Positions 27,744 to 49,501 of a stretch of DNA of 50,036 nt are shown here, in pieces. This DNA is from Bacteroidales bacterium (GTDB lineage Bacteria; Bacteroidota; Bacteroidia; Bacteroidales; PUMT01): assembly GCA_007132225.1 (NCBI GenBank), contig SLPB01000099.1:1-50036 (forward strand), read 5' to 3'. A program made the position numbers and the translations under genes. The first letter of the stretch is position 1. The number at the start of each line of letters is the position of its first letter. Below the pieces are notes generated by a model. The model made no database searches. It was not told the origin of the DNA and worked only from the letters and a program-made list of their open reading frames with translations.

Positions 27744-28613
27744 ATGACAAAAACTGTTTCGGATCAGGATTACAGGCTATTTGTAAACACTGTAAAAAGG
27801 GTGTCAGAATATGATTTAAGTGATTATTCCGACAAATCACTTAAACGACGCATAGCTAAAGTGCTTTCCGATAACAAAACAGATATACATAAACTCATCT
27901 CAGATATCAACAGTAACACAGACTACCTTGAAAAAATAATAAGAGGAGTAACAGTAAATACAACCGAATTATTCCGCGATCCAAAAGCATGGCATGATAT
28001 ACGCTATAAAGTATTACCGGAACTGGCATCTTTGCCCACTATAAATATATGGCACGCAGGATGTTCTACCGGACAGGAGGTATATTCCATGCTGATCCTG
28101 TTAAACGAAACAGGATTGCTTGATAAAGCCAGGGTGCTGGCCACCGACATTAATTCCAATGTTCTTGAAACCGCAGGATCAGGAATCTACAAGTACCGGT
28201 TCAACCGTGGGTATCTGGATAATTTTGACAGGGTGATTCGCCGAAACCCGCTTAATTATGAAGAGTTCAGGGATGTACCCTATTCAAAATATTTCACAAT
28301 TGATAAGGACAGTGATACACTTACAATCAAACCGTTTTTGCTTGAAAAACCTGTTTATAAAAAGCACGATCTTGTTTCCTGCAATAATTTTATTCCCGGT
28401 AAATTTGACCTTATTATCTGCAGGAACGTAATCATTTACTTCAATTACTCCCTTCAAAACCGGATTTTTAATTTTTTTTATCAGAATCTCCATCCTGGAG
28501 GTTCCCTGGTCCTTGGCATGCATGAATCAATTAGCGGCCCAATGTCAGAAAGGTTTATCAAATCCGGTCATGCCTACTCAAAACCAGTAAAATACTTTGG
28601 AAAGATGATTTGA
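27744..28613 (+). CDS. cheR: chemotaxis protein methyltransferase CheR
   Basis: CheR methylates glutamate residues of chemoreceptors using S-adenosylmethionine. The 289-residue protein has the N-terminal helical domain and a complete catalytic domain: VNTTELFRD (residues 71-79), the SAM motif GCSTGQE (106-112), ATDIN (133-137), and DLIICRNVIIYF near 225-236. All look functional. The last codons and the stop codon lie inside a perfect 38-bp palindrome (28593-28630). TATTTTTG at 27702-27709 may be the -7 promoter element. Cognate substrate receptors are not evident in the window. Confidence 0.94.
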   Translation: MTKTVSDQDYRLFVNTVKRVSEYDLSDYSDKSLKRRIAKVLSDNKTDIHKLISDINSNTDYLEKIIRGVTVNTTELFRDPKAWHDIRYKVLPELASLPTINIWHAGCSTGQEVYSMLILLNETGLLDKARVLATDINSNVLETAGSGIYKYRFNRGYLDNFDRVIRRNPLNYEEFRDVPYSKYFTIDKDSDTLTIKPFLLEKPVYKKHDLVSCNNFIPGKFDLIICRNVIIYFNYSLQNRIFNFFYQNLHPGGSLVLGMHESISGPMSERFIKSGHAYSKPVKYFGKMI

Positions 28614-28630
28614 ATCATCTTTCCAAAGTA
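28593..28630. promoter_or_regulatory. perfect 18-bp inverted repeat with GATGATT box (site 1)
   Basis: TACTTTGGAAAGATGATT, a TG spacer, and AATCATCTTTCCAAAGTA form a perfect inverted repeat of 18-bp arms spanning the cheR stop codon. The core, GATGATTTGAATCATC (28604-28619), recurs as its reverse complement at 44360-44375 and with one change at 39485-39500. It lies 138 bp upstream of the ATG of the next gene. No U-tract follows, so it is unlikely to be an ordinary terminator. TATTTTTG at 28675-28682 begins 63.5 bp from the palindrome centre. Confidence 0.8.
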
Positions 28631-28756
28631 AGGAAGCTCATTTATATATTGATTTTTCCGGAATCCTTTTTAGATATTTTTGACCGTACCTAAATACACT
28701 GGGTATTGCTCAATCAAATTACAGCTATTGCTGAATGATGAAAATTGATTCTTACT

Positions 28757-29584
28757 ATGGCAAGGTTTAACCTGGGGATTACTGACGTCAGAAAAATAAC
28801 AGGGGCCCTGACAGAAAAAGGATATCCGGATTTTGCCGGATATGCTCTTATGTCATTAAAATTAAGTCTGGAAAAGATAATATCCAATCATGGTTTTAAA
28901 GAATCAGGTGCAATGGTTTCCAGAATATATTCCGATGACAACTTTACAGATTCACTAATTGATGAATTATCGGTTGAAACCACTGAAATGTTCCGGGATC
29001 CATCAATGTGGAGGCTGCTGCGGGAACGCATTTTCCCGGGGATTTTCGGCACCGGTGATAAAATAAAATTCTGGCTTCCGGGAAGTGTTTCGTCCGAAGA
29101 CCTGGTTTCATTGATTATCCTGTTAAAAGAATCTGATCTTACAACCAGGTCTGCAATTATCCTTACATCTTTAAGCGGAAAAAGTCTGGATAATATAGCC
29201 AGCGGGGTATTCAGGTCATCTAAAATGGAAGTAAGTGAAGCCAATTACACGAAATTTCAGGGCAAAGGAGAGCTTTCTGAATATATGGTAAAAGAGGGTG
29301 GGAAATTTTTCTGGAATAAAAACCTGTTTTCAGAAGTTACCTTCTCACTGGGGAAAAGTCACCTGGAAGCATCTGCCACATGTGTGAACTGCATAATTTT
29401 CAGAGACAAGATGATATATATGAATCTCACACTTAGCAACAAAATGCTTGATGTGATCTGTAGAAGCCTTTCAGGGGGGGGGTATTTTATAATTGGTTCC
29501 GGCGAAAGCCTTACACACACTCTTTTTGACAAACATTTCAGCCAGGTTGACCAGAATGAAAAAATTTACCAGAAAATCAGATGA
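28757..29584 (+). CDS. degenerate CheR-like protein, catalytic motifs lost
   Basis: The 275-residue protein has the overall layout of CheR and keeps part of the first motif (VETTEMFRD, residues 73-81). The SAM-binding GCSTGQE is replaced by GSVSSED (109-115), ATDIN by LTSLSG, and CRNVIIYF by FRDKMIYM. It is therefore very unlikely to bind SAM or methylate. It lies between an intact cheR and cheB, so a role as a binding partner, decoy or regulator of CheR or of receptors is plausible. I choose ATG 28757; a TTG at 28745 is the other option. Its stop overlaps the cheB start. Confidence 0.8.
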   Translation: MARFNLGITDVRKITGALTEKGYPDFAGYALMSLKLSLEKIISNHGFKESGAMVSRIYSDDNFTDSLIDELSVETTEMFRDPSMWRLLRERIFPGIFGTGDKIKFWLPGSVSSEDLVSLIILLKESDLTTRSAIILTSLSGKSLDNIASGVFRSSKMEVSEANYTKFQGKGELSEYMVKEGGKFFWNKNLFSEVTFSLGKSHLEASATCVNCIIFRDKMIYMNLTLSNKMLDVICRSLSGGGYFIIGSGESLTHTLFDKHFSQVDQNEKIYQKIR

Positions 29585-30159
29585 TCATGTATAAGGCTAT
29601 AATAATAGGAGGATCAGCAGGGAGTTTCCAGGTAGTGACCAGGATACTAAGCTCTTTGCATAAGGATTTCCCCCTGCCTGTACTGCTTAGCCTTCACAGA
29701 CTTAAGCATATAAGATCAGGCTTCGTGGAAGCTCTCTCCCTTAAATCATCCATTCCTGTTAAAGAGCCCGGAGATAAAGACCATATCAGGCCAGGCATTG
29801 CTTACCTTGCTCCTTCCAACTATCATATGCTTATTGAACTGGGCAGCCGTTTTGCATTATCGACGGCTGCCCCTGTAAACCACTCCAGGCCATCTATCGA
29901 TCTTTCATTTTTTTCAGCGGCACAAGCCTATCGGGAAAAGCTTATAGGAATAATATTATCAGGGGCAAACAGGGATGGTGCACAGGGTCTTGAAAGGGTA
30001 GCCAGCCTGGGAGGGAAAACAATTGTGCAGGATCCTGATGAATGCCAGGTTCCGGTTATGCCAAAGGAATCATTGAAACTGACAGGGGTTGACCATATAT
30101 TAAACAGCAGTCAAATAATAGAGTTTTTAAAAAAAATAAACAGGAATGCACTGGATTAA
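29581..30159 (+). CDS. cheB: receiver-less CheB methylesterase domain protein
   Basis: This 192-residue protein consists of the CheB catalytic domain alone. The nucleophile motif is GGSAGS (Ser12), a His lies in LSLHRLKH, and an Asp in IILSGANRDGAQGL; the usual GMGxDG is altered to GANRDG. The methylesterase removes methyl groups from receptor glutamates, balancing CheR. The regulatory receiver domain of classical CheB is missing, so control by CheA phosphorylation would have to be indirect. The start ATG overlaps the stop of the CheR-like gene, with ATG 29587 as an alternative. It overlaps the following gene by 14 bp. Confidence 0.88.
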   Translation: MIMYKAIIIGGSAGSFQVVTRILSSLHKDFPLPVLLSLHRLKHIRSGFVEALSLKSSIPVKEPGDKDHIRPGIAYLAPSNYHMLIELGSRFALSTAAPVNHSRPSIDLSFFSAAQAYREKLIGIILSGANRDGAQGLERVASLGGKTIVQDPDECQVPVMPKESLKLTGVDHILNSSQIIEFLKKINRNALD

Positions 30160-30937
30160 TACTGATATATACAGAGCTACGGTTGCATGGATTTTTATGC
30201 TACTCTCGGCTTTTTTACTCCTGTTTTCGCTTGGAAGCGATGGAGAGGCAAATGCTTTGACATTTTTTTACCTCGTACTGATACTTCTTATGGGTCTGTT
30301 CCTTTATATTTTAATTACACAACGCAAGAAGGAAGAAGGTGGCGATCCCAATCAGGCGCTGAAAAAGGAAGTTGACAGTGAGATTGAACCGGATAAAAAA
30401 GGCGGCAGGGATCTTTCCCGGTTTGCCGGAGCTGATAAAGGCATTCAGTATTTTAATACGGAGAAGTTTGTTGCAGATTTAATGAGACAGGGGAATAAGG
30501 ATGAATCTGCCGAAAAATTATTGGAAAGGATATTGTCAGTTATTGCAAACAAGTTTGAAGCAGTGCAGGGAATTATGTATTTCAGGGATCCCGCCGGGGA
30601 GATATATTCCCATGTTGCCAATTATGCTTACTATTCAGATACCCTGCCGGTTTCATTTAAAGCGGGGGAAACCTTACCGGGACAGGTTGCTAAAAACAAG
30701 AAATTACTCAATATAGACAATGTTCCCGAAGGATATATGACTGTACTTAGCGGACTGGGCAGCAGCTATCCGCGTAATCTCGTAATCATACCTTTATTGT
30801 ATCAGGAAGAGACTGTGGCAGTGATCGAGCTTGCTTCTTTTAAACCTTTCACTGCAAGGGAGGAAAATATTTTGGAACAGCTTGCACCATCCCTTGGAAA
30901 TGATATTGGTAATCTGATTAAAGCCTGGACAAAGTGA
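30146..30937 (+). CDS. membrane protein with cytoplasmic GAF domain
   Basis: The 263-residue protein has two transmembrane helices near residues 10-30 and 38-58 and a charged linker (60-95). A GAF domain follows at about 105-260 (LMRQGNKDESAEKLLERILSVIANKF..., GETLPGQVAKNKKLLNIDNVPEGY...IPLLYQEETVAVIELASF). It has no catalytic output domain. GAF domains bind small ligands or mediate dimerisation. The GAF of the next protein is clearly similar (EVPEDYVTITSGILG versus VPEGYMTVLSGLG type motifs), which suggests that the two form a hetero-complex. Both ends overlap neighbours (cheB by 14 bp, the phosphatase by 4 bp), so it is tightly coupled. Confidence 0.82.
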   Translation: MHWINTDIYRATVAWIFMLLSAFLLLFSLGSDGEANALTFFYLVLILLMGLFLYILITQRKKEEGGDPNQALKKEVDSEIEPDKKGGRDLSRFAGADKGIQYFNTEKFVADLMRQGNKDESAEKLLERILSVIANKFEAVQGIMYFRDPAGEIYSHVANYAYYSDTLPVSFKAGETLPGQVAKNKKLLNIDNVPEGYMTVLSGLGSSYPRNLVIIPLLYQEETVAVIELASFKPFTAREENILEQLAPSLGNDIGNLIKAWTK

Positions 30938-33552
30938 AAAAAATAATGAAAATATTTGATTTGGAACAGGAAAGATTAAACCGCATATTAATCAGCACCG
31001 GAATAACACTGGCTGCTTTAATAATGTTGCCTCTACTTGCCTGGTCTGTTGCGCTTTATAATGCAGAACACGGATTTACCTTAAGTGCTTTAAGGGCACT
31101 GCATTCTGAGCATCCTGTTTACTGGTTTGTTACCTTTCTTCCACTTCCGGCAGGCATTGTAGTTTTCTGGTTTTTAATCCGGACAGAATGGGTAAAGCAA
31201 AAACTGTCAGGTGAACTGGAAGGAAAAAACGAAAGCATATGCAAGAATGCAGCTTTTGCTCAAAGAATAGGTGAAGGTGATTTTAAAGCAAGTCTTGACC
31301 TGGAATGCAGGAATGATGACCTTGGAAAATCGCTGCTGGTCATGAGAGATAACCTCCTTGAAAACAAAAAGAAAGAGGAGGAGCAGAACTGGATTGCAGA
31401 AGGAAAGGATATTATAGCAAATATATTAAGACTTCATAACAGCATTGATACTTTGGCAATAGCAGTTGTTGAACAACTGATAAAATATATAAAAGCGACT
31501 CAGGGTGCCTTATTTGTTTATAATGAAGAATCTGACAAACTGGTAAACGTAGCCACTTATGCATATAACCGGCAAAAATACATTAACCAGGAATTTGGTA
31601 TCGGACAAGGTCTGATCGGTCAGTGTGCCTATGAAAGAGATTTAATTTACCGTACTGAAATACCCGAAGATTATGTCACCATAACATCGGGCATTCTTGG
31701 CGATAAGAAACCCGGGAGTATCCTTATAGTTCCCCTTATAACAGACGAAAAGCTCCAGGGGGTCCTTGAGTTCGCATCACTGGATGATGAAATACCCGGT
31801 CAAACGATAAAATATCTAAGAGAACTGGGTGAGATAATTGCCAGAACCATATTTAACCTCAATATAAACAAGAAGACCGAGAAGCTTTTGCAGGAAGCAA
31901 GGCAGATGACTGAAGAATTGACAGAGAATGAAGAGGCGTTGAGGCAAAGTGCTGAAGAAATGAGGGCCACACATGAGGAGCTGGAAAAATCAAATGAAAG
32001 GCTGGAAATGCAGGTTGAGGAAGTGGAAAATGTGCAAAAACGCCTTCACTCACTTCTGGAGAACGCCTCAGAGATAATCACGATCTATGACCAGCAAATG
32101 AGAATGATATATGAAAGTCCTTCTGTTCTGCGCATTCTTGGATATACACCCGAAGAGATGATGGAAGGAAAGGATTTCGACCGCCTGACCCCAAAAGGTG
32201 AAACAGAATTTAAAAACATGTTCGCCAGGCTTCTCAATGATCCTTCCCAGGTTATAACAATAAAATACACTTATGTAAGAAAAGACGGCAAAAAGATATA
32301 CCTGGAGACAACGGGCAGGAACTTTCTTCATGATCCGGCAATAAAAGGAATAATAATAAATTCCCGGGATATGACCGAAAGAATAAGGGCGGAGAAAGAA
32401 GAGAGGCTGAGATCAAAAATGCAGGCCCTTTCTGAAAACAGTCTGGATATGATTGTGAGACTTGGCACAACAGGCAAGTTTTTCTATGCAAATCCCGTGA
32501 TTGAAAGGTATACCAACCTGGATCCCAGGGAGGTTATCAATCGCACCATCAACGAAGTAAAACTCAATGATACCCTGTTTAATTTTTTCAAGGATGCTAT
32601 TAAAAAGATAAAAACATCATCAGAAAAAATTGATTCGGAAATTACAATCACAAACGATGAAGGTGATAGGATAATACGTATTAATGCCATTCCCGAATAT
32701 AATGAAAATGAACTGGAGACTATATTGTTTGTAGGTCACGACATTACAGAGGCCAAACAGATAGAACTGCTGATACAGGAAAAGAACAGGAAAATCACTG
32801 AAAGCATAAACTATGCAGAACGTATACAAGGTGCAATATTGCCTGATACTGAATTCATAAGGGGCTTCCTTCCGAATTCTTTCATTTTTTATGTGCCCAG
32901 AGATGTTGTAAGTGGTGATTTCCCGTGGTTCTTCCAGAAGAATGAAACCCTTTATATAGCTGCTGTGGACTGTACCGGTCATGGTGTGCCCGGGGCACTG
33001 ATTTCATTTATAGGGTATTTCCTGCTGAATAACATTGTAGATCACGAACGTGAGCTCTCAGCTGCATCTGTGCTTGATGAATTAAATGCGGGGGTTCGCC
33101 ATACTCTGAAACAGGAACGTGTTGATGCCAATGCCAGAGATGGGATGGATATAGCACTGATTAAAATACCACTGGGTGAAAACCGGATCGAATTTGCAGG
33201 AGCTCACCGCCCCCTTTATATGTTAAGGGATGGAGAACTAACAGAATATAAAGGCGACAGAAAAGCAATTGGCGGGATACCACACAAGCGCAAACCGGAG
33301 AAGGATTTTACTAACCATAAGATAAAGCTGCTTAAAGGGGATAAGGTTTTTATTTTTTCCGATGGCTTACCCGACCAGATAGGCGGGCCTGAGGGTAAAA
33401 AGTATGGCCCACGCCGTATTCGTGAGACAATAACCGAAAATGCAGATTATACCATGGAAGAATATAACCGCCATTTTACTGAAGATCATATTCATTGGCA
33501 AGGGGATATTAAACAAATAGATGATATTCTAATGATAGGAATTGAGTTTTAA
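30934..33552 (+). CDS. membrane sensor phosphatase, HAMP-GAF-PAS-PAS-PP2C (SpoIIE type), SiaA-like
   Basis: The 872-residue protein starts with two transmembrane helices (about 18-40 and 62-82). A HAMP-like segment (GEGDFKASLDLECRNDDLG) follows, then a GAF domain (about 150-300), a coiled coil (about 310-370) and two PAS domains (about 372-490 and 492-620). It ends in a PP2C/SpoIIE serine/threonine phosphatase (about 650-870) with VVSGDFPWFF, AAVDCTGHGVPGALIS, DGMDIALI and FSDGLPDQIGG supplying the metal-binding Asp residues. Followed by SiaB- and SiaC-like genes, it fits the SiaA role of dephosphorylating SiaC. The start is GTG 30934, overlapping the upstream stop, or ATG 30946. Confidence 0.9.
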   Translation: MKKIMKIFDLEQERLNRILISTGITLAALIMLPLLAWSVALYNAEHGFTLSALRALHSEHPVYWFVTFLPLPAGIVVFWFLIRTEWVKQKLSGELEGKNESICKNAAFAQRIGEGDFKASLDLECRNDDLGKSLLVMRDNLLENKKKEEEQNWIAEGKDIIANILRLHNSIDTLAIAVVEQLIKYIKATQGALFVYNEESDKLVNVATYAYNRQKYINQEFGIGQGLIGQCAYERDLIYRTEIPEDYVTITSGILGDKKPGSILIVPLITDEKLQGVLEFASLDDEIPGQTIKYLRELGEIIARTIFNLNINKKTEKLLQEARQMTEELTENEEALRQSAEEMRATHEELEKSNERLEMQVEEVENVQKRLHSLLENASEIITIYDQQMRMIYESPSVLRILGYTPEEMMEGKDFDRLTPKGETEFKNMFARLLNDPSQVITIKYTYVRKDGKKIYLETTGRNFLHDPAIKGIIINSRDMTERIRAEKEERLRSKMQALSENSLDMIVRLGTTGKFFYANPVIERYTNLDPREVINRTINEVKLNDTLFNFFKDAIKKIKTSSEKIDSEITITNDEGDRIIRINAIPEYNENELETILFVGHDITEAKQIELLIQEKNRKITESINYAERIQGAILPDTEFIRGFLPNSFIFYVPRDVVSGDFPWFFQKNETLYIAAVDCTGHGVPGALISFIGYFLLNNIVDHERELSAASVLDELNAGVRHTLKQERVDANARDGMDIALIKIPLGENRIEFAGAHRPLYMLRDGELTEYKGDRKAIGGIPHKRKPEKDFTNHKIKLLKGDKVFIFSDGLPDQIGGPEGKKYGPRRIRETITENADYTMEEYNRHFTEDHIHWQGDIKQIDDILMIGIEF

Positions 33553-33691: not shown

Positions 33692-34270
33692 ATGACAAAG
33701 GAGAATAATGAAAAAGGCTTTCTGGAGTTTGTTTACAACTTCTACAAAACAATGAAAGCTCATGAAATCACACTCGTCTATGAGGGAGAAATCACCCATC
33801 AAATTACCAAGGCTTTCACCTCACTAACAGAATCCAATATGTCTAAGGAGATGGAGTCAAATAATGTTCAGAGAAAAGTGTTTCATGTTATGGTAGAATG
33901 CCTTCAAAACATTAGCAAGCATGCAGACACCTTCGGACAGAACGATTATGTTTATTCAGGCAGAGGAATTTTCCTGGTAAGCAAGGCAGATTCTGAGTAC
34001 AGTGTAACTACAGGCAATGTAATTGACAACTACAAGATTGATGAACTCACAACATTACTCGAGCAGATCAACAGCCTGGACAAGGAAGGCCTGAAGGAGA
34101 TGTACAAGACCCAGATGAAGGAGGGCAGGCTGTCCGCAAAAGGCGGGGCAGGTCTGGGATTTATTGATATTGCCCGCAAGACCGGCAAAAAGCTTTTATA
34201 TCATTTTCTTCCGGTTTCAGAAACAACATCCTTCTTTTTATTAACCTCAACCATTTCAAGAAATATATAA
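33692..34270 (+). CDS. SiaB-like protein kinase (GHKL fold)
   Basis: This 192-residue protein resembles the SiaB family (DUF6272), single-domain kinases with a histidine-kinase-like ATPase fold that phosphorylate the partner protein SiaC. An N-box-like helix FHVMVECLQNISKHA lies at about residues 64-78, and a glycine-rich lid KGGAGLGFIDIARKTG at about 149-164. It stands 140 bp downstream of the PP2C phosphatase gene and 10 bp upstream of siaC, the order seen in SiaABC systems. The output in Pseudomonas is the diguanylate cyclase SiaD; no cyclase gene is visible here, so the target must differ. Confidence 0.85.
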   Translation: MTKENNEKGFLEFVYNFYKTMKAHEITLVYEGEITHQITKAFTSLTESNMSKEMESNNVQRKVFHVMVECLQNISKHADTFGQNDYVYSGRGIFLVSKADSEYSVTTGNVIDNYKIDELTTLLEQINSLDKEGLKEMYKTQMKEGRLSAKGGAGLGFIDIARKTGKKLLYHFLPVSETTSFFLLTSTISRNI

Positions 34271-34280
34271 ATCAATTATT

Positions 34281-34655
34281 ATGGAAGCAATAAAAATTTT
34301 GGGAACCGATGATACGCCCGGCATAGTGCTTGATGCTGAAAATGACGTATTTGAAATTTCCGGCAGATCCCTTCCTGAGGATGTCACATCATTTTATGAG
34401 CCGGTACTGAACTGGCTTGATGAATATTCAGAGAACCCCAAACCAAAAACTGAGTTTGTTTTCAAACTTACTTATTTCAACACCGCCTCATCTAAGGTGC
34501 TGCTTGATATACTTATGAAGCTTGAAGACATACACAGTACAGGTAAAGAGGTCCTGGTCAAATGGTATTATCCGGATGATGATGAAGACATGCAGGAGGC
34601 AGGGGAGGAATATGCCGACATTGTAGATGTAAATTTTGAGCAACTGAGCTGTTGA
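34281..34655 (+). CDS. SiaC-like regulatory phosphoprotein (DUF1987)
   Basis: The 124-residue protein matches the SiaC/DUF1987 family: FEISGRSLPEDVTSFYEPVLNWL, FKLTYFNTASSKVLLDIL, and WYYPDDDEDMQEAGEEY. Thr68 in YFNTASS corresponds in motif, and from memory in number, to the Thr phosphorylated by SiaB in Pseudomonas aeruginosa SiaC. It would be the phosphorylation-switched partner of the kinase encoded 10 bp upstream and the PP2C phosphatase further upstream. The unphosphorylated form is expected to bind an effector, which here may be the adjacent transporter or a Che component. That last point is inference. Confidence 0.87.
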   Translation: MEAIKILGTDDTPGIVLDAENDVFEISGRSLPEDVTSFYEPVLNWLDEYSENPKPKTEFVFKLTYFNTASSKVLLDILMKLEDIHSTGKEVLVKWYYPDDDEDMQEAGEEYADIVDVNFEQLSC

Positions 34656-34824: not shown

Positions 34825-37800
34825 ATGAGTGAAGAAATCCTGCGCGCCTTAATGCAACTTTTCGCCCTGCTGGTTAAGCAGGATGAGGGGGTGGAGCGTA
34901 AAGAGGTTGAGTACGTAGAAAGTTTTCTTAATCAGCAGCTTAACGATGAAGCTGCAAGGGAGTATATGCAGCTCTTCAAGAAGCAGGCAGGAATGCTTGA
35001 TAATGCTAATGAAGATAAGGCGGACAAGAAAGAAGGCAAAGCCGGGAAGATGAAGCTCACTTCGGTAAAGGATTCTGTCAGGGTACTTGGCATATGTAAA
35101 AAAATAAACAAGACCCTTACACAAAAACAGAAAATTGTATCCCTGGTAAGGTTGTTTGAAATTGTTAATGCTGCCGGCAAGTTCACAGATCAGCGCATGG
35201 CGATCATAAATACCGTGGCAGATGTTTTTAAACTTGATAATAATGAGTTTAAAGATATCAAGCGGTTTGTTCTTAATTCCCAAAGCAGGGAGATGGATTT
35301 TCCTGCCCTGATGATAATAAGCAACCAGTCGCCCGAACTGGAGCAGGCAAAACATATACATTGTGAAACGGAAAGCGGACAGATATATATTCTGCAGATA
35401 AAAAGCGAAGATCTTTATTTTCTCCGTTATACCGGAACAGATGATATTTACCTGAACGGGCTGCCATTAAACACCCGGCGCATTTACCTTTTTGCCAGCG
35501 GCAGTACCATCAAACTTCCAAAAGGCAAGCCCATATATTACAGCGATGTAATTTCACACTATCTTGCCGGCGAATCGGCTGTAAGAGTATCTTACCAGGT
35601 TAATGATGTGAGCTATAGTTTCAGTAACGGTGGAATAGGATTGCGCGACATAAGCTTCTCCGAGGGCCAGGGCAGGCTGATAGGTATCATGGGAGCCAGC
35701 GGTGCAGGAAAAACAACACTTCTGAATGTTCTCTCAGGCACCGAGGCTCCGACAACTGGTAATGTTAAAATCAATAACATCGACCTTCATAATCAAAAAG
35801 AAAAACTTGAAGGTGTTATCGGACTTATCCCGCAGGACGACCTGCTTATCGAGGAGCTCACTGTTTTTGAAAACCTTTACTACAACGCAAAGCTTTGTTT
35901 CCGCAACAAGTCAGAAGAGGAAATAACTGTAATGGTGGAAAAAACACTGTCTAACCTCGGACTTCTGGACAGGCGTGATATGAAAGTGGGGTCTCCTCTT
36001 AATAAAGTTATAAGCGGAGGACAGCGAAAAAGGCTGAATATTGCCCTCGAACTTATAAGAGAGCCATCAATACTATTTGTAGACGAGCCTACTTCAGGTC
36101 TTTCGTCAAGGGATTCAGAGAATGTAATGGACCTTCTAAGGGAACTAACTTTAAAAGGCAAGCTTATCTTCGTGGTCATTCATCAACCCTCATCCGATAT
36201 CTATAAGATGTTCGACAACATTATGATACTGGATACGGGTGGATATATGATATATTACGGTAACCCTGTTGAAGGTGTAATGTATTTTAAAAGAATTGAT
36301 GCCCAGATAAACAGCGATATCGGGGAATGTCCTGATTGCGGCAATGTAAATCCTGAGCTTATCTTTAATATTATAGAGGCAAGAGTTGTTGATGAGCTGG
36401 GCCGCTATACGCCTGACAGGAAGGTTTTACCTCATCGCTGGGAAAACCTCTTTAAAGATAACATCAAACTGGATCGGGTGCGGACTGAGACAGATCCGCC
36501 TCCTGCAACACTGAAAATCCCTTCCTGGTTCAGCCAGTTTAAAATCTATTCGCTGCGTGACTTTTTTTCCAAGATAAGCAACAGGCAGTATATAGCACTT
36601 AACCTGCTTGAAGCCCCCCTCCTCGCCTTCATCCTTTCATATATAATAAGATATATAGCAGACCCCGGCTCAAGCGTCTACATTTTCAGGGAAAATGAAA
36701 ACATACCAATTTATATTTTCATGAGCCTGATAGTAGCCTTGTTTCTGGGACTTACCATAAGCGCCGAGGAGATATTCAGGGACAGGAAGATTCTTAAAAG
36801 AGAAGCCTTTCTCAATCTGAGCCGTTCCAGCTACCTTTTTTCAAAGATCATAATACTTTTAAGCATCTCTGCTATACAGGCAATACTTTTTGTCTGGGTC
36901 GGGAACTCCATCCTGGGGGTAAAGGGGATGAACCTGGAATACTGGCTGGCCCTGTTTTCCATAGCAGCCTTTGCCAATATGCTGGGGCTAAATATTTCTG
37001 CATCATTTAATTCGGCAGTAACCATATACATTCTGATCCCCCTGCTGATGATCCCACAAATGATACTCGGAGGTGCAATGTTCAGCTTTGAAAAGCTTAA
37101 CCGAACAATAGGCAGTGTCGATAAGGTGCCTCTCATAGCCGAGATCATGCCTACCAAATGGACATACGAAGCGTTGATGGTACACCAGTATAAAAATAAT
37201 GCTTTTCAGCAATACTTTTTTGAACTTGAAAAAAGTGAGAATGTGGCCGATTTTCAAAAAGTTTACTGGTTGCCTGAGTTGAGAAATCGTCTTGAAATTG
37301 TAATTGACGAATATTCAGATAAAAAAGAAATAATTGACAGCCGCACTGAATTACAGCTCATTAGCAATGAAATAAGAAAAGAGCTGATCCGTATGCCAGG
37401 AGTCACTTTTGGGAAACTTGAGGGACTGGATCCTGAAAGTTTCAATATGGATGTTGCCGGGAATATATTTGAATACCTTGATCAGCTGGATAGGAAATAT
37501 ACCGAAAATTATGAGAAGGCAAACCGTCAGAAAGAAAACATAATAAATTACTGGATGGAGCAAAACCCGGCACAATACAGATATTTACGGGATGCTTATT
37601 ACAATGAAAGTCTGGCTGATATAGTTAAGAAAGTATTTGAAAAGAACCAGATTCTTGAATTCAGGGATGAGCTGGTTCAGCAGATTAATCCAATATACCG
37701 TGATCCAATTCCAGGCTCATGGTTTAATTTCAGGTCACACTTTTATGCACCACGTAAATATTTTGCAGGATTTTTCTTTGACACTTTTTATTTCAACATT

Positions 37801-37944
37801 ATTATTGTCTGGATATTAACAACCGTTCTTTATGTGACATTGTATTATAACCTGTTAAAAAAGAGCATTGATTGGTTTGATAAAATAAACTTCAGAAGAG
37901 TATTGCCTTCCCGACCAGTTAAAGCTTTACGGATCAATAAATAA
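34825..37944 (+). CDS. TerB-like / FHA-like / ABCG-type transporter fusion
   Basis: The 1039-residue protein starts with a helical TerB-like region (about residues 1-150). An FHA-like beta domain (about 165-245) ends IYLNGLPL...IYYSDV. The ABC ATPase (about 255-480) has Walker A GASGAGKT (290-297), Q-loop PQDD (336-339), signature SGGQRKR (397-403), Walker B ILFVDEPT (416-423) and switch His453. A Cys pair in ECPDCGN (502-505) follows. Five to six transmembrane helices lie between about 575 and 755, a large extracytoplasmic segment at about 760-985, and a last helix near 992-1015. The ATPase-then-membrane order is that of ABCG exporters. Regulatory N-terminal domains and the upstream siaC suggest signal-controlled transport. 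Confidence 0.85.
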   Translation: MSEEILRALMQLFALLVKQDEGVERKEVEYVESFLNQQLNDEAAREYMQLFKKQAGMLDNANEDKADKKEGKAGKMKLTSVKDSVRVLGICKKINKTLTQKQKIVSLVRLFEIVNAAGKFTDQRMAIINTVADVFKLDNNEFKDIKRFVLNSQSREMDFPALMIISNQSPELEQAKHIHCETESGQIYILQIKSEDLYFLRYTGTDDIYLNGLPLNTRRIYLFASGSTIKLPKGKPIYYSDVISHYLAGESAVRVSYQVNDVSYSFSNGGIGLRDISFSEGQGRLIGIMGASGAGKTTLLNVLSGTEAPTTGNVKINNIDLHNQKEKLEGVIGLIPQDDLLIEELTVFENLYYNAKLCFRNKSEEEITVMVEKTLSNLGLLDRRDMKVGSPLNKVISGGQRKRLNIALELIREPSILFVDEPTSGLSSRDSENVMDLLRELTLKGKLIFVVIHQPSSDIYKMFDNIMILDTGGYMIYYGNPVEGVMYFKRIDAQINSDIGECPDCGNVNPELIFNIIEARVVDELGRYTPDRKVLPHRWENLFKDNIKLDRVRTETDPPPATLKIPSWFSQFKIYSLRDFFSKISNRQYIALNLLEAPLLAFILSYIIRYIADPGSSVYIFRENENIPIYIFMSLIVALFLGLTISAEEIFRDRKILKREAFLNLSRSSYLFSKIIILLSISAIQAILFVWVGNSILGVKGMNLEYWLALFSIAAFANMLGLNISASFNSAVTIYILIPLLMIPQMILGGAMFSFEKLNRTIGSVDKVPLIAEIMPTKWTYEALMVHQYKNNAFQQYFFELEKSENVADFQKVYWLPELRNRLEIVIDEYSDKKEIIDSRTELQLISNEIRKELIRMPGVTFGKLEGLDPESFNMDVAGNIFEYLDQLDRKYTENYEKANRQKENIINYWMEQNPAQYRYLRDAYYNESLADIVKKVFEKNQILEFRDELVQQINPIYRDPIPGSWFNFRSHFYAPRKYFAGFFFDTFYFNIIIVWILTTVLYVTLYYNLLKKSIDWFDKINFRRVLPSRPVKALRINK

Positions 37945-37978: not shown

Positions 37979-38890
37979 ATGAATAGAATTAGATTGTTAT
38001 TGTTCATTATGGTTCTGCCGGTTCTCATTGCCTCTTGCCAGTCAGGAAGGGATCCCGGACTGGGAACGGAATTTGAAATTCCCGATTCAGTTATTCATGC
38101 AGAATCTCTTGAAATATCAGAGGAAATAATGGGTGGTATTATATCCAATGTTTCCTCTATTGTTGAAATGTCAGCTCTAATAAAAGACCTCGGCGTGCCT
38201 TATTCAAACAGGTACCTTGCCTCAACAGACCATGTTGATAATTACAACACCAACTTTAAACGGGCCCTGATGCTTGGCGTTTTTGGAGCTGACCTTGGTT
38301 ATCTAAATATGTACAACCGCTCGACTGCTGTAATTAGTTACCTGTCTTCTATCAGAAGACTTTCAGATGGTTTGGCTGTGGGTCATTTTTTTGATTTTTC
38401 AACCTTGCGACGGCTGGCAAGCTCCCAGTCAGATCTTGATTCGTTGATGTTCATTTCCGTGCAAAGCTTTAACAGGATGGATAATTATCTGAGGCAGGAA
38501 AAAAGATCTCACCTGAGTACAGCTATGGTTGCAGGAGTTTGGATAGAAGGTCTGTACCTTCTTACCCAGGTTGCCAGATCGCATCCCGGAGAAGAGATAT
38601 ACGAAAGAATTGGAGAACAGAAAATCATTCTGAACGATTTGATGTTAATACTAAAAAATTTTGAGCGGGTGCATCCCGAGTATGCTCAACTTACCCGTGA
38701 GCTGGCCCCTATCAAAGAAGAGTTTGACCAGGTTAGCATAACTTATGAGATTGGTGAGCCGGAGGCAATAGAACGCGATGGTATGCTAATGATAATACAG
38801 AACGAGCGCAGTATTGTAAATATTACTCAGGAGCAGGTTGAAAGCATAACAGAAAAGGCAGCAATCATTCGCAACAATTTAATTCTTTAA
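37979..38890 (+). CDS. lipoprotein of unknown function
   Basis: The 303-residue protein begins MNRIRLLLFIMVLPVLIASC, with a signal peptide ending in a lipobox; Cys20 would be the lipidated residue. The mature part is soluble and helix-rich (EISEEIMGGIISNVSSIVEMSALIKDLG..., many Leu/Ile heptads) and ends in a helical IVNITQEQVESITEKAAIIRNN. I recognise no family. It starts 34 bp after the transporter gene and is followed within 4 bp by another exported protein. It is probably part of the transporter operon and might be a periplasmic or outer-membrane partner. Confidence 0.78.
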   Translation: MNRIRLLLFIMVLPVLIASCQSGRDPGLGTEFEIPDSVIHAESLEISEEIMGGIISNVSSIVEMSALIKDLGVPYSNRYLASTDHVDNYNTNFKRALMLGVFGADLGYLNMYNRSTAVISYLSSIRRLSDGLAVGHFFDFSTLRRLASSQSDLDSLMFISVQSFNRMDNYLRQEKRSHLSTAMVAGVWIEGLYLLTQVARSHPGEEIYERIGEQKIILNDLMLILKNFERVHPEYAQLTRELAPIKEEFDQVSITYEIGEPEAIERDGMLMIIQNERSIVNITQEQVESITEKAAIIRNNLIL

Positions 38891-38894
38891 TAGT

Positions 38895-39326
38895 ATGAGA
38901 CGATTTATTTTAGTTTTTATTGTTATTGTCAAATTTTATCCGGCATACTCTCAAACCACGGAGCAATTGGTTGATATTTGTGTTGATCGTATGGAAGATG
39001 TTACCTACCTCAGAGATTTTCAGGTTGAGCTTGAAGCTGCACAACCCGGGCGGCCGGAACCGGTTGCCAGGTATTCCATGGTACTTAACAAGAATACATT
39101 ATACCGGTTATCAATCTGCAATGCCGAAACCTCGGGTGCCGGAATCATTAAAGTATTTGACAACAGGGGACTTCTGGCCAGCAATTATATTTCCGAGTCA
39201 GATACCCATTATCCGTTTTTTGATATACAGATACAGAGCACGGGAGTCTACCATATATTTATCTCTTTCAAAGACGGCCTGCCCGGCAGAGCAGCAGGTA
39301 TCCTATCATTGGTTAAGCGGTTGTAA
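38895..39326 (+). CDS. small exported protein of unknown function
   Basis: The 143-residue protein has a hydrophobic signal sequence (MRRFILVFIVIVKFYPAYS) with a likely cleavage after YSQ. The mature part of about 122 residues is predicted beta-rich: alternating hydrophobic strands such as YRLSICNAE, AGIIKVFDN and TGVYHIFISFKDG. This resembles small bacterial pre-peptidase-like or C2-like beta sandwiches. It follows the lipoprotein gene by 4 bp. No function can be assigned; the context suggests secretion together with the lipoprotein and the transporter. Confidence 0.7.
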   Translation: MRRFILVFIVIVKFYPAYSQTTEQLVDICVDRMEDVTYLRDFQVELEAAQPGRPEPVARYSMVLNKNTLYRLSICNAETSGAGIIKVFDNRGLLASNYISESDTHYPFFDIQIQSTGVYHIFISFKDGLPGRAAGILSLVKRL

Positions 39327-41020: not shown

Positions 41021-41398
41021 TTACCGTAAGCTTTCATTTTCCAGGATATTAAAAGGTATATCCGTCATCGACTGCATCAGCTGACCCATTTCATACATAG
41101 ATTCATCTTCCGGGTCAAAATACCAGTTTATTATAATTTCATTGCCCTGCTCGTAAACTTTTTCCAGAATATGGATCATGCTGACAAGGCATCGTGCAGA
41201 ACTACCGTTAAGGTATTCAAAATTCAGATCTATCCGGGTTATATTATCACAACGATGGGTGCAATTTTCCAACAAATCATTAAGGGGTTTGTAAAACAGG
41301 TTTGAATCTTCGAGTATGCTTCTTCCTGCAATACTCATCTTCCCTCTCCTAAACAGTACTGAAGGAGTTTTCAAAGTGCCGTCAATCTCTACATCCAT
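41021..41398 (-). CDS. second SiaC-like protein (DUF1987), atypical phosphosite
   Basis: The 125-residue protein shares the SiaC/DUF1987 pattern with 34281-34655: MSIAGRSILEDSNLFYKPLNDLL, IDLNFEYLNGSSARCLVSMI, and INWYFDPEDESMYEMG. At the place of the phosphorylated Thr (YFNTASSK in the first copy) it has YLNGSSAR, so Thr is replaced by Gly and a Ser follows. It may be locked in one state or use the neighbouring Ser. It is encoded on the minus strand, after a lipoprotein gene and downstream of the SPOR gene on the other strand. Confidence 0.82.
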   Translation of the reverse strand: MDVEIDGTLKTPSVLFRRGKMSIAGRSILEDSNLFYKPLNDLLENCTHRCDNITRIDLNFEYLNGSSARCLVSMIHILEKVYEQGNEIIINWYFDPEDESMYEMGQLMQSMTDIPFNILENESLR

Positions 41399-47066: not shown

Positions 47067-47432
47067 ATGGAAAAAACAATTTTGATTGTAGATGACTCTG
47101 AAAGTATCCGGGAGGTAGTAAGCTTCACCCTGGAAAGTGAAGGATTTAAGGTACTTGTGGGTGTTGACGGAAAAGATGCCCTGAAATTTCTGGATGGAAG
47201 TAACATCGATCTGATTATTACCGATCTGCACATGCCTGTTATGAATGGCATCGAGTTAATAAGAGAGGTTCGGAAAATGGATGACTACAGCCGCATTCCC
47301 ATACTGTTTCTTACCACCGAATCGCAAACTGCAAAAAAGATGGAGGCCAAGGAGGCCGGGGCCACCGGATGGATAATAAAGCCCTTTGTGCCTGCGAAGC
47401 TGATTGCAGCAATTAATAAAGTGATGAGATGA
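47067..47432 (+). CDS. cheY: CheY-like response regulator
   Basis: The 121-residue receiver protein has acidic residues D9-D10, phospho-acceptor D53 in IITDLHMPVMNG, Thr in FLTTES and Lys in IIKPFVP. The TDLHMPxMNG and KPF motifs are those of classical CheY, unlike the two other receivers of the locus. It overlaps the cheA start (ATGA), so it is the primary CheA target. Without flagellar genes nearby, the receiving machinery could be gliding, type IV pili or a transcriptional or partner-switch output. Confidence 0.93.
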   Translation: MEKTILIVDDSESIREVVSFTLESEGFKVLVGVDGKDALKFLDGSNIDLIITDLHMPVMNGIELIREVRKMDDYSRIPILFLTTESQTAKKMEAKEAGATGWIIKPFVPAKLIAAINKVMR

Positions 47433-49501
47433 CATCAATGGAAAACTTTCAATCAAAATTTATAGAAGAGGCTGCAGATAATATTAATGATCTGGAGAAT
47501 GCACTGCTTCTGCTTGAAGATAATCCTGAAGATGCAGAGATTATCGAGCGTGTATTCAGGGCCATGCACTCCCTCAAAGGCGGCGGAGCCATGTTTGGTT
47601 TCGCTATGCTCAGTGATTTCACTCATCATATGGAGAACATATATGACCAGGTAAGAGAAGGGAACCTGAAGGTCACCAGGGATCTTCTGAACATCACCCT
47701 TGACTCGGTCGATCTTATGAAAAAATTGCTGGATAAAGATCATATCGGTACGGAAGATACCGTCCGGGAATATAATTCACTAATATCCAGCATGGAATCA
47801 ATACTTAAAATCCATGCGGGCAACCAGGATCAGGCAATGAGAGAAAGTATAAACCCGGCAATAAGTAAAAAAGAACAAAAAGGATTGTCAACATATTATA
47901 TTCATTTTATTCCCGGCCTGGATATAATGAAAAACGGCACCAACCCCCTATATCTTATAGATGAGTTATGCTCCCAGGGAGAAAGCCTGGTTATATCCCG
48001 CATTCAAAATGTCCCCGGACTGGAAGAGTTTGATATAGAAAAATGTTATACGGGATGGGATATGTTTTTGTCCACCGCCGGCGATATAAATGCCGTTTCC
48101 GATGTATTTATGTTCGTTGAAGATGAATGCACCCTGGATATTCATAAACTCAGCGATTCCGATCTTTTTGAAGAAGAGAGTTTTATCAAAAAGACAGAAG
48201 AATACCGCTCTGACGACAGTGAGATCGTAATAAACGATCTTATGGAGTTTATCGGGCAGTTAAACAAAGAGAGGCTGGGGAAGCAGCTAAATACAGCTAA
48301 AAGAAAAGCAACAAACGGAAAGGATAACGCCATTACCTCCATCAGGGTCTCATCCGAAAAGATCGATCAGTTGATGAACCTGGTAAGTGAAATGGTTATC
48401 ACCCAGGCAAGCCTGAGCCTTTATACCGAGAATACCCAGAACCTTGACCTGCAGCCAATTGCCGAAAGTGTTCAGAAGCTGACCCGCCAGTTGCGCGACA
48501 ATGCTTTCTCCATAAGCCTTATTCCCCTTGAAAGCATGATGACAAGGTTTCAGAGGCTGGTACGCGATCTTAGCGACGGACTTGACAAGGAGATTAAATT
48601 CACTGCCATCGGCACCGAGACGGAGCTTGACAAAACAATTATCGAATCGCTTTCCGATCCCCTGATGCACATCTTCAGGAATTCAGTAGATCACGGGATA
48701 GAGCTGCCCGATTTACGTGAGGAAAGAGGTAAAAAGAGGCAGGGCGAGATCATTCTCAAAGCTTTTTACTCAGGGGCAAACGTAATTATAAAAGTAACCG
48801 ATGACGGTGCAGGTATAGATCCCCAAAATATCAGGCAAAAAGCTATCGATAAAGGTATTATTACATCAGAATCAATATTAAACCACAAAGAACTGCTTAA
48901 CCTTCTATTTATTCCGGGTTTTTCCACTGCCAAAGCAGTCACCGATGTTTCCGGCCGCGGTGTGGGGATGGATGTGGTAAAAAGAAAAATCTCATCCATC
49001 CATGGTGAGGTTGATATTGATTCCGTTGCCGGGGAAGGTACCGACATAACAATTAAACTGCCACTTACATTATCGATCATTGACGGATTGCTGGTCAGGA
49101 TCGCCAAAAGCCAGTATGTTATTCCATTATCAATGGTTGATAAGATATTTGCCGTTGAACACACAAAGCTGGCCAACGCTTATAACAACCTGGTAGAACT
49201 TGACGGGGAACAGATACCTTTTTATTACCTGAGAGAGGAATTTGAAGAAGAGGGGGAGGCTCCCGAAACCGAAGAAGTTGTGGTTGTTAAGTTCGAAGGC
49301 GTAAGAGTCGGACTTGCAATCGACAGCGTAGTAGGAGAATACCAGGCCGTATTAAAACCACTTGGAAAATTTTACAAAAACCAGGAAACTATTTCCGGAG
49401 CCACTATCCTTGGTGATGGCAGTATAGCGCTGGTTTTGGATACAAATAAAATAATAAATCACTTTTCAAATCATAACAAAATCAAGGAGGAAATAAAATG
49501 A
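47429..49501 (+). CDS. cheA: chemotaxis histidine kinase CheA
   Basis: CheA is the receptor-controlled kinase that phosphorylates CheY and CheB. The 690-residue protein has an HPt domain with His47 in AMHSLKGGGAMFGF. A linker with an alpha-beta P2-like domain (about 155-250) follows, then a dimerisation helix pair (SSEKIDQLMNLVSEMVITQ). The ATPase has N box DPLMHIFRNSVDHGIE, G1 DDGAGID and G2 GRGVGMDVVK. The protein ends in a CheW-like domain from about residue 555. All key residues are present. It starts at ATG 47429, overlapping the cheY stop; ATG 47438 is possible. It overlaps cheW by 4 bp. Confidence 0.95.
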   Translation: MTSMENFQSKFIEEAADNINDLENALLLLEDNPEDAEIIERVFRAMHSLKGGGAMFGFAMLSDFTHHMENIYDQVREGNLKVTRDLLNITLDSVDLMKKLLDKDHIGTEDTVREYNSLISSMESILKIHAGNQDQAMRESINPAISKKEQKGLSTYYIHFIPGLDIMKNGTNPLYLIDELCSQGESLVISRIQNVPGLEEFDIEKCYTGWDMFLSTAGDINAVSDVFMFVEDECTLDIHKLSDSDLFEEESFIKKTEEYRSDDSEIVINDLMEFIGQLNKERLGKQLNTAKRKATNGKDNAITSIRVSSEKIDQLMNLVSEMVITQASLSLYTENTQNLDLQPIAESVQKLTRQLRDNAFSISLIPLESMMTRFQRLVRDLSDGLDKEIKFTAIGTETELDKTIIESLSDPLMHIFRNSVDHGIELPDLREERGKKRQGEIILKAFYSGANVIIKVTDDGAGIDPQNIRQKAIDKGIITSESILNHKELLNLLFIPGFSTAKAVTDVSGRGVGMDVVKRKISSIHGEVDIDSVAGEGTDITIKLPLTLSIIDGLLVRIAKSQYVIPLSMVDKIFAVEHTKLANAYNNLVELDGEQIPFYYLREEFEEEGEAPETEEVVVVKFEGVRVGLAIDSVVGEYQAVLKPLGKFYKNQETISGATILGDGSIALVLDTNKIINHFSNHNKIKEEIK
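49484..49490 (+). promoter_or_regulatory. strong Shine-Dalgarno sequence before cheW
   Basis: AAGGAGG lies 7 nt upstream of the cheW ATG (49498), inside the 3' end of cheA. Full Shine-Dalgarno sequences are uncommon in Bacteroidota, so this one is notable and supports the start choice. Confidence 0.75.

Follow-up and report, generated by a model that had tools for sequence, protein, structure and literature searches.

What does a SiaABC phospho-switch control in a bacterium that encodes no diguanylate cyclase? This question is raised by a 50,036-nucleotide stretch of DNA from a Bacteroidales bacterium (contig SLPB01000099.1, positions 1 to 50,036; the whole stretch is called the window below), in which genes for a SpoIIE-type phosphatase, the kinase SiaB and SiaC lie within one operon and are followed by a gene for a 1039-residue ABC half-transporter (34825..37944; dotted coordinates denote features on the + strand). 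The transporter combines a TerB domain, an FHA-fold domain, an ABC ATPase and an ABCG-type membrane domain. We propose that the operon encodes a SiaABC-type partner switch with the ABC exporter as its output, a reading to which we give about an even chance, and, somewhat more tentatively, that SiaC directly and reversibly gates the exporter, with the TerB/pseudo-FHA region acting as a receiver that would bind unphosphorylated SiaC.

The precedent is the SiaABCD system of Pseudomonas aeruginosa, where siaD is co-transcribed with siaABC. There, unphosphorylated SiaC binds the stalk helices of SiaD through its helices 2 and 3; T68, at the start of helix 2, inserts between the stalk helices, acidic residues of helix 3 are contacted by basic stalk residues, and phosphorylation of T68 by SiaB blocks the contact (PMC8457831). 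The phosphorylation state of T68 is set by SiaB and SiaA (PMC7647112). The present locus resembles that system in its gene order (SpoIIE-type phosphatase, SiaB, SiaC), in the SiaC fold family, in the placement of T68 within an NT[AS]S motif, and in the slot right after siaC, which siaD occupies there and the transporter, as putative effector, occupies here. It differs in that a diguanylate cyclase is replaced at this effector position by an ABC exporter, a lipoprotein and a secreted protein, in its GAF/PAS inputs and in the CheR/CheB genes upstream. Further, no protein with the GGDEF domain of diguanylate cyclases was found in this genome, nor in 37 of the 38 genomes tested that bear the transporter family, the domain being present in the remaining one. 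As the genome nevertheless carries seven siaC genes, SiaC must have some other target there, and the transporter, lying in the siaD slot of genomes devoid of GGDEF proteins, is by position and elimination the best candidate.

The conservation of the locus can be judged against an alignment of 115 family members recovered by genome searches, comprising 39 orthologs (tree support 1.0) and 76 paralogs. On the same strand as the orthologs, siaC is a neighbor in 36/39 and siaB in 37/39, with the usual order SpoIIE phosphatase, siaB, siaC, ABC transporter, lipoprotein and secreted protein, and with median gaps of 13 nucleotides between siaB and siaC, 45 between siaC and the transporter gene, 55 between the latter and the lipoprotein gene, and 5 from there to the gene for the secreted protein. 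Given that the genome has seven siaC genes in 3.3 Mb, this adjacency is a conserved operon and not a product of chance.

SiaC (34281..34655) matches its Pfam family with an E value of 9.4e-42, and its T68 (codon 34482-34484) aligns with the NTSS of the P. aeruginosa protein, the surrounding YFNTASSK being present in all 36 linked orthologs; the SiaC-like neighbor with Thr68 predicted in the first-pass annotation is thus borne out. The SiaB-family kinase (33692..34270) matches NCBIfam NF038262 above its cut-off (E 1.8e-50) as well as Pfam DUF6272, and an N-box pattern is seen in 37/37 SiaB proteins. The SiaA-like phosphatase (30934..33552) has a GAF-PAS-PAS-SpoIIE architecture with DxTGHG in 24 of 25 orthologs. 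The catalytic motifs of kinase and phosphatase are thus largely kept. Of the curated models for the switch proteins, only the SiaB subfamily model is passed; the proteins score below the cut-offs of the equivalog-level models for SiaB (85.8 bits against 225), SiaC (85.9 against 150) and SiaA (177 against 700).

The transporter, whose ATG start is kept among relatives, shows Pfam matches to TerB (residues 8-146), ABC_tran (273-424) and ABC2_membrane (571-788), a single ATPase followed by a single ABC2 membrane domain being the layout of a half-transporter. The ATPase (35596..36264) has intact Walker A (GASGAGKTT), signature (ISGGQRKR), Walker B (LFVDEPTSGL) and H-loop (IHQPSS) motifs, which are found in 114, 115, 98 and 110 of the 115 members, respectively. 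ABCG and PDR-type exporters are among the solved relatives that match it, with some matches reaching into the membrane domain; the curated White-subfamily model TIGR00955 gives 235.5 bits, below its cut-off of 736. Hydropathy peaks at residues 590-608, 627-645, 675-693, ~704-726, 731-749 and 988-1006 suggest the ABCG 5+1 pattern, with transmembrane helices (TM) 1-5 encoded at 36592..37071 and an outside loop before TM6. This predicted extracytoplasmic insert (residues 750-987, about 238 in all; 37072..37785) is the fastest-evolving part of the protein, with a mean pairwise identity of 0.36 (residues 796-980) against 0.74 in the ATPase region. A CxxC motif (ECPDCG, C502/C505; 36328..36339) in the linker after the ATPase is kept in 114/115 members, and, as it supplies two cytoplasmic cysteines per chain, the two subunits of the dimer could share a metal site. 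The TerB-like N-terminus, the CxxC and the segment of more than 200 residues outside the membrane had all been read correctly in the first-pass annotation. Like ABCG/White-type half-transporters, the protein has an ATPase preceding the membrane domain, the IHQPSS H-loop and a long TM5-TM6 segment; it departs from them in its TerB-FHA front end, the CxxC linker, the size of the insert and the neighboring lipoprotein.

The annotation also held that an FHA-like domain precedes the ATPase, and the predicted structure bears this out as regards the fold. An AlphaFold2 model of residues 1-268, built from an alignment of five sequences (the window protein and L013-L016), has a predicted local distance difference test (pLDDT) score of 75.8 and a predicted template-modeling score of 0.74, a good score being obtained for one of the five models only. 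It shows a bundle of helices and, after it, a small beta domain at residues ~160-247 (35302..35565). A Foldseek search of the PDB with this model returned a list made up almost wholly of FHA domains (best 5yyz, E 0.014, probability 1.00), and the other match, to Porphyromonas gingivalis PG1108 (2h5n), probably reflects the helical half. None of these E values is strong by itself, and it is the consistency of the list on which the predicted FHA fold stands. Searching PDB sequences with an N-terminal profile gave only chance-level matches (E about 0.1). Against a profile of 30 bona fide FHA domains from this phylum, the C-terminal half alone aligns, at a pairwise E of 7.7e-5 where control segments give 0.05-0.65, which is weak. 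The Pfam results list no FHA (PF00498) match for the window protein, FHA is not one of the 25 families that most of 46 members match, and the genome as a whole has no match to it. In phylum-level relatives (G392, G400), TerB is accompanied by a longer N-terminal region with, by eye, apparent FHA-like repeats, one part of which matches the full length of the FHA domain with 94.9% probability. Since only the C-terminal half aligns here while the relatives' region matches the full length, the domain is best described, from profiles and model, as a shortened, diverged FHA. Relatives at this distance (L133, L134, L135, L136) are 1201-1309 residues long and have a longer extracytoplasmic insert too.

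What has been lost bears directly on the mechanism first put forward, in which the FHA-like domain would bind SiaC phosphorylated at T68 and so gate the transporter. The ordered set GR...SxxH...[ST]xNG, present in 24 of the 30 genuine FHA domains, is absent from all 115 family members, which retain instead Y202, G204, N211-G212, G226 and Y238; recognition of phosphothreonine by this domain is therefore unlikely. The annotation had itself named loss of the phosphothreonine-binding residues as a finding that would refute it. In its favor are the FHA fold, the presence of T68 and the precedent of Mycobacterium tuberculosis Rv1747, an FHA-FHA-ABC exporter whose FHA I binds phospho-T237 of Rv2623 (PMC5549992). 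Against it stand not only the missing Arg, Ser, His and Asn but also the known system, where phospho-T68 blocks effector binding, and the location of T68 at the beginning of a helix in a folded domain, not in a free peptide. We accordingly reject phospho-T68 reading as highly improbable, and retain from that proposal the functional link between SiaC and the transporter. Rv1747 does resemble the present protein in having an FHA fold at its N-terminus, before an ATPase fused to a membrane half-transporter, and in the control of the exporter by a partner (here proposed), so that the fusion of FHA to an ABC exporter has a precedent. In Rv1747, however, FHA I reads phosphothreonine, a universal stress protein acts as partner and the kinase is PknF; here TerB is followed by just one FHA-fold domain, which lacks the binding residues, and SiaABC forms the switch.

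If SiaC contacts the transporter, the TerB domain (34846..35262) is the favored docking site. It is helical in the AlphaFold2 model and exceeds the Pfam PF05099 cut-off of 24.4 bits both in the whole protein (32.4 bits, E 1.3e-7) and in the N-terminal piece alone (36.7 bits, E 5.7e-9); 38 of 46 members match at E<=1. We infer this preference from its stronger conservation and from a basic conserved segment (residues 78-110; 35056..35154) that could serve as a docking surface for the acidic residues 96-115 of SiaC. With ATPase/membrane identity matched (0.60-0.65), that of TerB is 0.58 among orthologs, 0.45 in a second clade (clade 2) and 0.31-0.34 elsewhere, while the mean net charge of the segment is +6.4, +3.7 and +1 to +2, respectively, and that of the SiaC region is -9. 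In one set of genomes (family f204: G449, G482, G511, G538, G565), the match in members of ~930-960 residues covers only the later half of TerB plus the FHA-like part, and TerB looks shortened or diverged in these sequences.

Several observations weigh against SiaC docking on this front end. Within clade 2, members with and without linked siaC are alike in TerB conservation and charge, so that lineage alone may account for both signals. Distance correlations are not specific to TerB (partial r with SiaC 0.17 for TerB and 0.40 for the FHA-like domain), and SiaB behaves alike. The contact pattern of the SiaD stalk (residues from PMC8457831) has no significant match in the transporter: its two best places do fall in TerB (residues 100 and 124), yet 31 of 60 shuffled motifs score equally high. 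Finally, 56 of the 76 paralogs have no siaC nearby and still possess TerB and FHA-like domains, which hence cannot serve SiaC alone. This last point, together with the occurrence of both domains in essentially all paralogs, siaC-linked or not, and in the phylum-level relatives with apparent FHA-like repeats, could mean that TerB and the pseudo-FHA are family-wide modules for assembly or for small signals (e.g., dimerization or the sensing of metal or membrane stress), with SiaC touching the ATPase or some other part. The stronger constraint and basic charge of TerB in the siaC-operon clade speak against this, and we regard it as unlikely.

A better-placed alternative, which we still hold to be rather doubtful, is that SiaC acts on another protein and is merely co-expressed with a transporter and lipoprotein that share its physiological program. 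Most paralogs work without a neighboring siaC, several of the seven siaC genes have no siaB or obvious effector alongside, and across the paralogs the lipoprotein is a commoner partner than SiaC. However, the transporter is almost invariably found 3' of siaC, in the siaD slot, and clade 2 adjoins siaB-siaC convergently (18/32), an arrangement that shared transcription cannot explain. We therefore favor direct gating of the exporter by SiaC, in which the contact, its site and its sign are inferred, activation being assumed by analogy with SiaD. Under this proposal, GAF/PAS inputs would control how active the SpoIIE-type phosphatase is, and this enzyme, together with SiaB, would set the phosphorylation state of T68. 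Unphosphorylated SiaC would dock on the cytoplasmic TerB and pseudo-FHA front end of the homodimeric transporter and change its activity, most likely switching it on, and phosphorylation of T68 by SiaB would break the contact. The lipoprotein and the secreted protein may work together with the extracytoplasmic insert.

The transporter family occurs in 51 of the 119 genomes sampled from the order, in up to six copies. In the class, 115 of the 198 genomes sampled contain a match to a profile of the N-terminal region, which in nearly every case falls within a frame of ~1000 residues. Clade 2 is weakly supported (0.35) and includes a copy from this genome, on contig C177, that is 48% identical; its 18/32 siaC-siaB neighbors are tail to tail with the transporter gene. 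In the remaining clades siaC is rare (2/44) and the lipoprotein frequent (30/44), from which we conclude that the core unit is transporter plus lipoprotein, with the SiaABC switch a clade-specific controller. This helical lipoprotein, lipo303 (37979..38890), is the commonest neighbor of the family (36/39 orthologs, 46/76 paralogs); it has no Pfam family at E<=1, and its low-confidence model (pLDDT 64) has no known-fold match. The small secreted protein p143 (38895..39326) lies beside 35/39 orthologs and 13/32 clade 2 paralogs.

Upstream of the switch, genes for a CheR-type methyltransferase (28745..29584), a CheB-type methylesterase domain protein (29581..30159) and a membrane-GAF protein (30146..30937) occupy conserved positions. 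Orthologs with a long enough flank have, at that place, genes of CheR and CheB size as well as those for a GAF protein and a GAF-PAS-SpoIIE phosphatase, the CheR and CheB identities being established in the window and judged by size elsewhere; nearly all of these orthologs have the CheR- and CheB-sized pair before the switch operon. Chemotaxis-type genes in the window (27744-30159 and 47429-49501) encode two CheR proteins, a CheB domain and a CheA-like Hpt/kinase/CheW protein. Close to the operon lies another SiaC-family gene (41021-41398, - strand), which has YLNGSSAR at the T68 site and has thus lost the phosphorylatable threonine. Elsewhere in the genome, a siaC gene lies directly 3' of a gene for a MacB/FtsX-like ABC permease, overlapping it as called (L201 7244-8906, contig C109), possibly a second SiaC-transporter pair. 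Further siaC genes (L202 7321-7710 and L199 7715-8110) lack an adjoining siaB; one of these has no T68 (FEILHVDCLV), and one converges, tail to tail, on a gene for an RpoD-type sigma factor.

Both an ABC exporter headed by an FHA domain and SiaABC switches with diguanylate cyclase output were already known. In the literature searched, whose scope excluded most subscription papers, we found no TerB-FHA-ABC fusion, no SiaC with an ABC transporter and no TerB, pseudo-FHA and ABCG combination under a SiaABC operon; within that scope this combination, a proposed effector swap, is new. SiaC (DUF1987) is widespread, but the papers searched name no effector other than SiaD; the near-invariant operon points to the transporter as the other target. 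The protein also provides an example of an FHA fold retained on a transporter after loss of its phosphothreonine-reading residues. If our proposal is correct, the output of the partner switch would be a membrane transporter and not a sigma factor or a diguanylate cyclase, and a phospho-switch would tie signals sensed by GAF/PAS domains to export.
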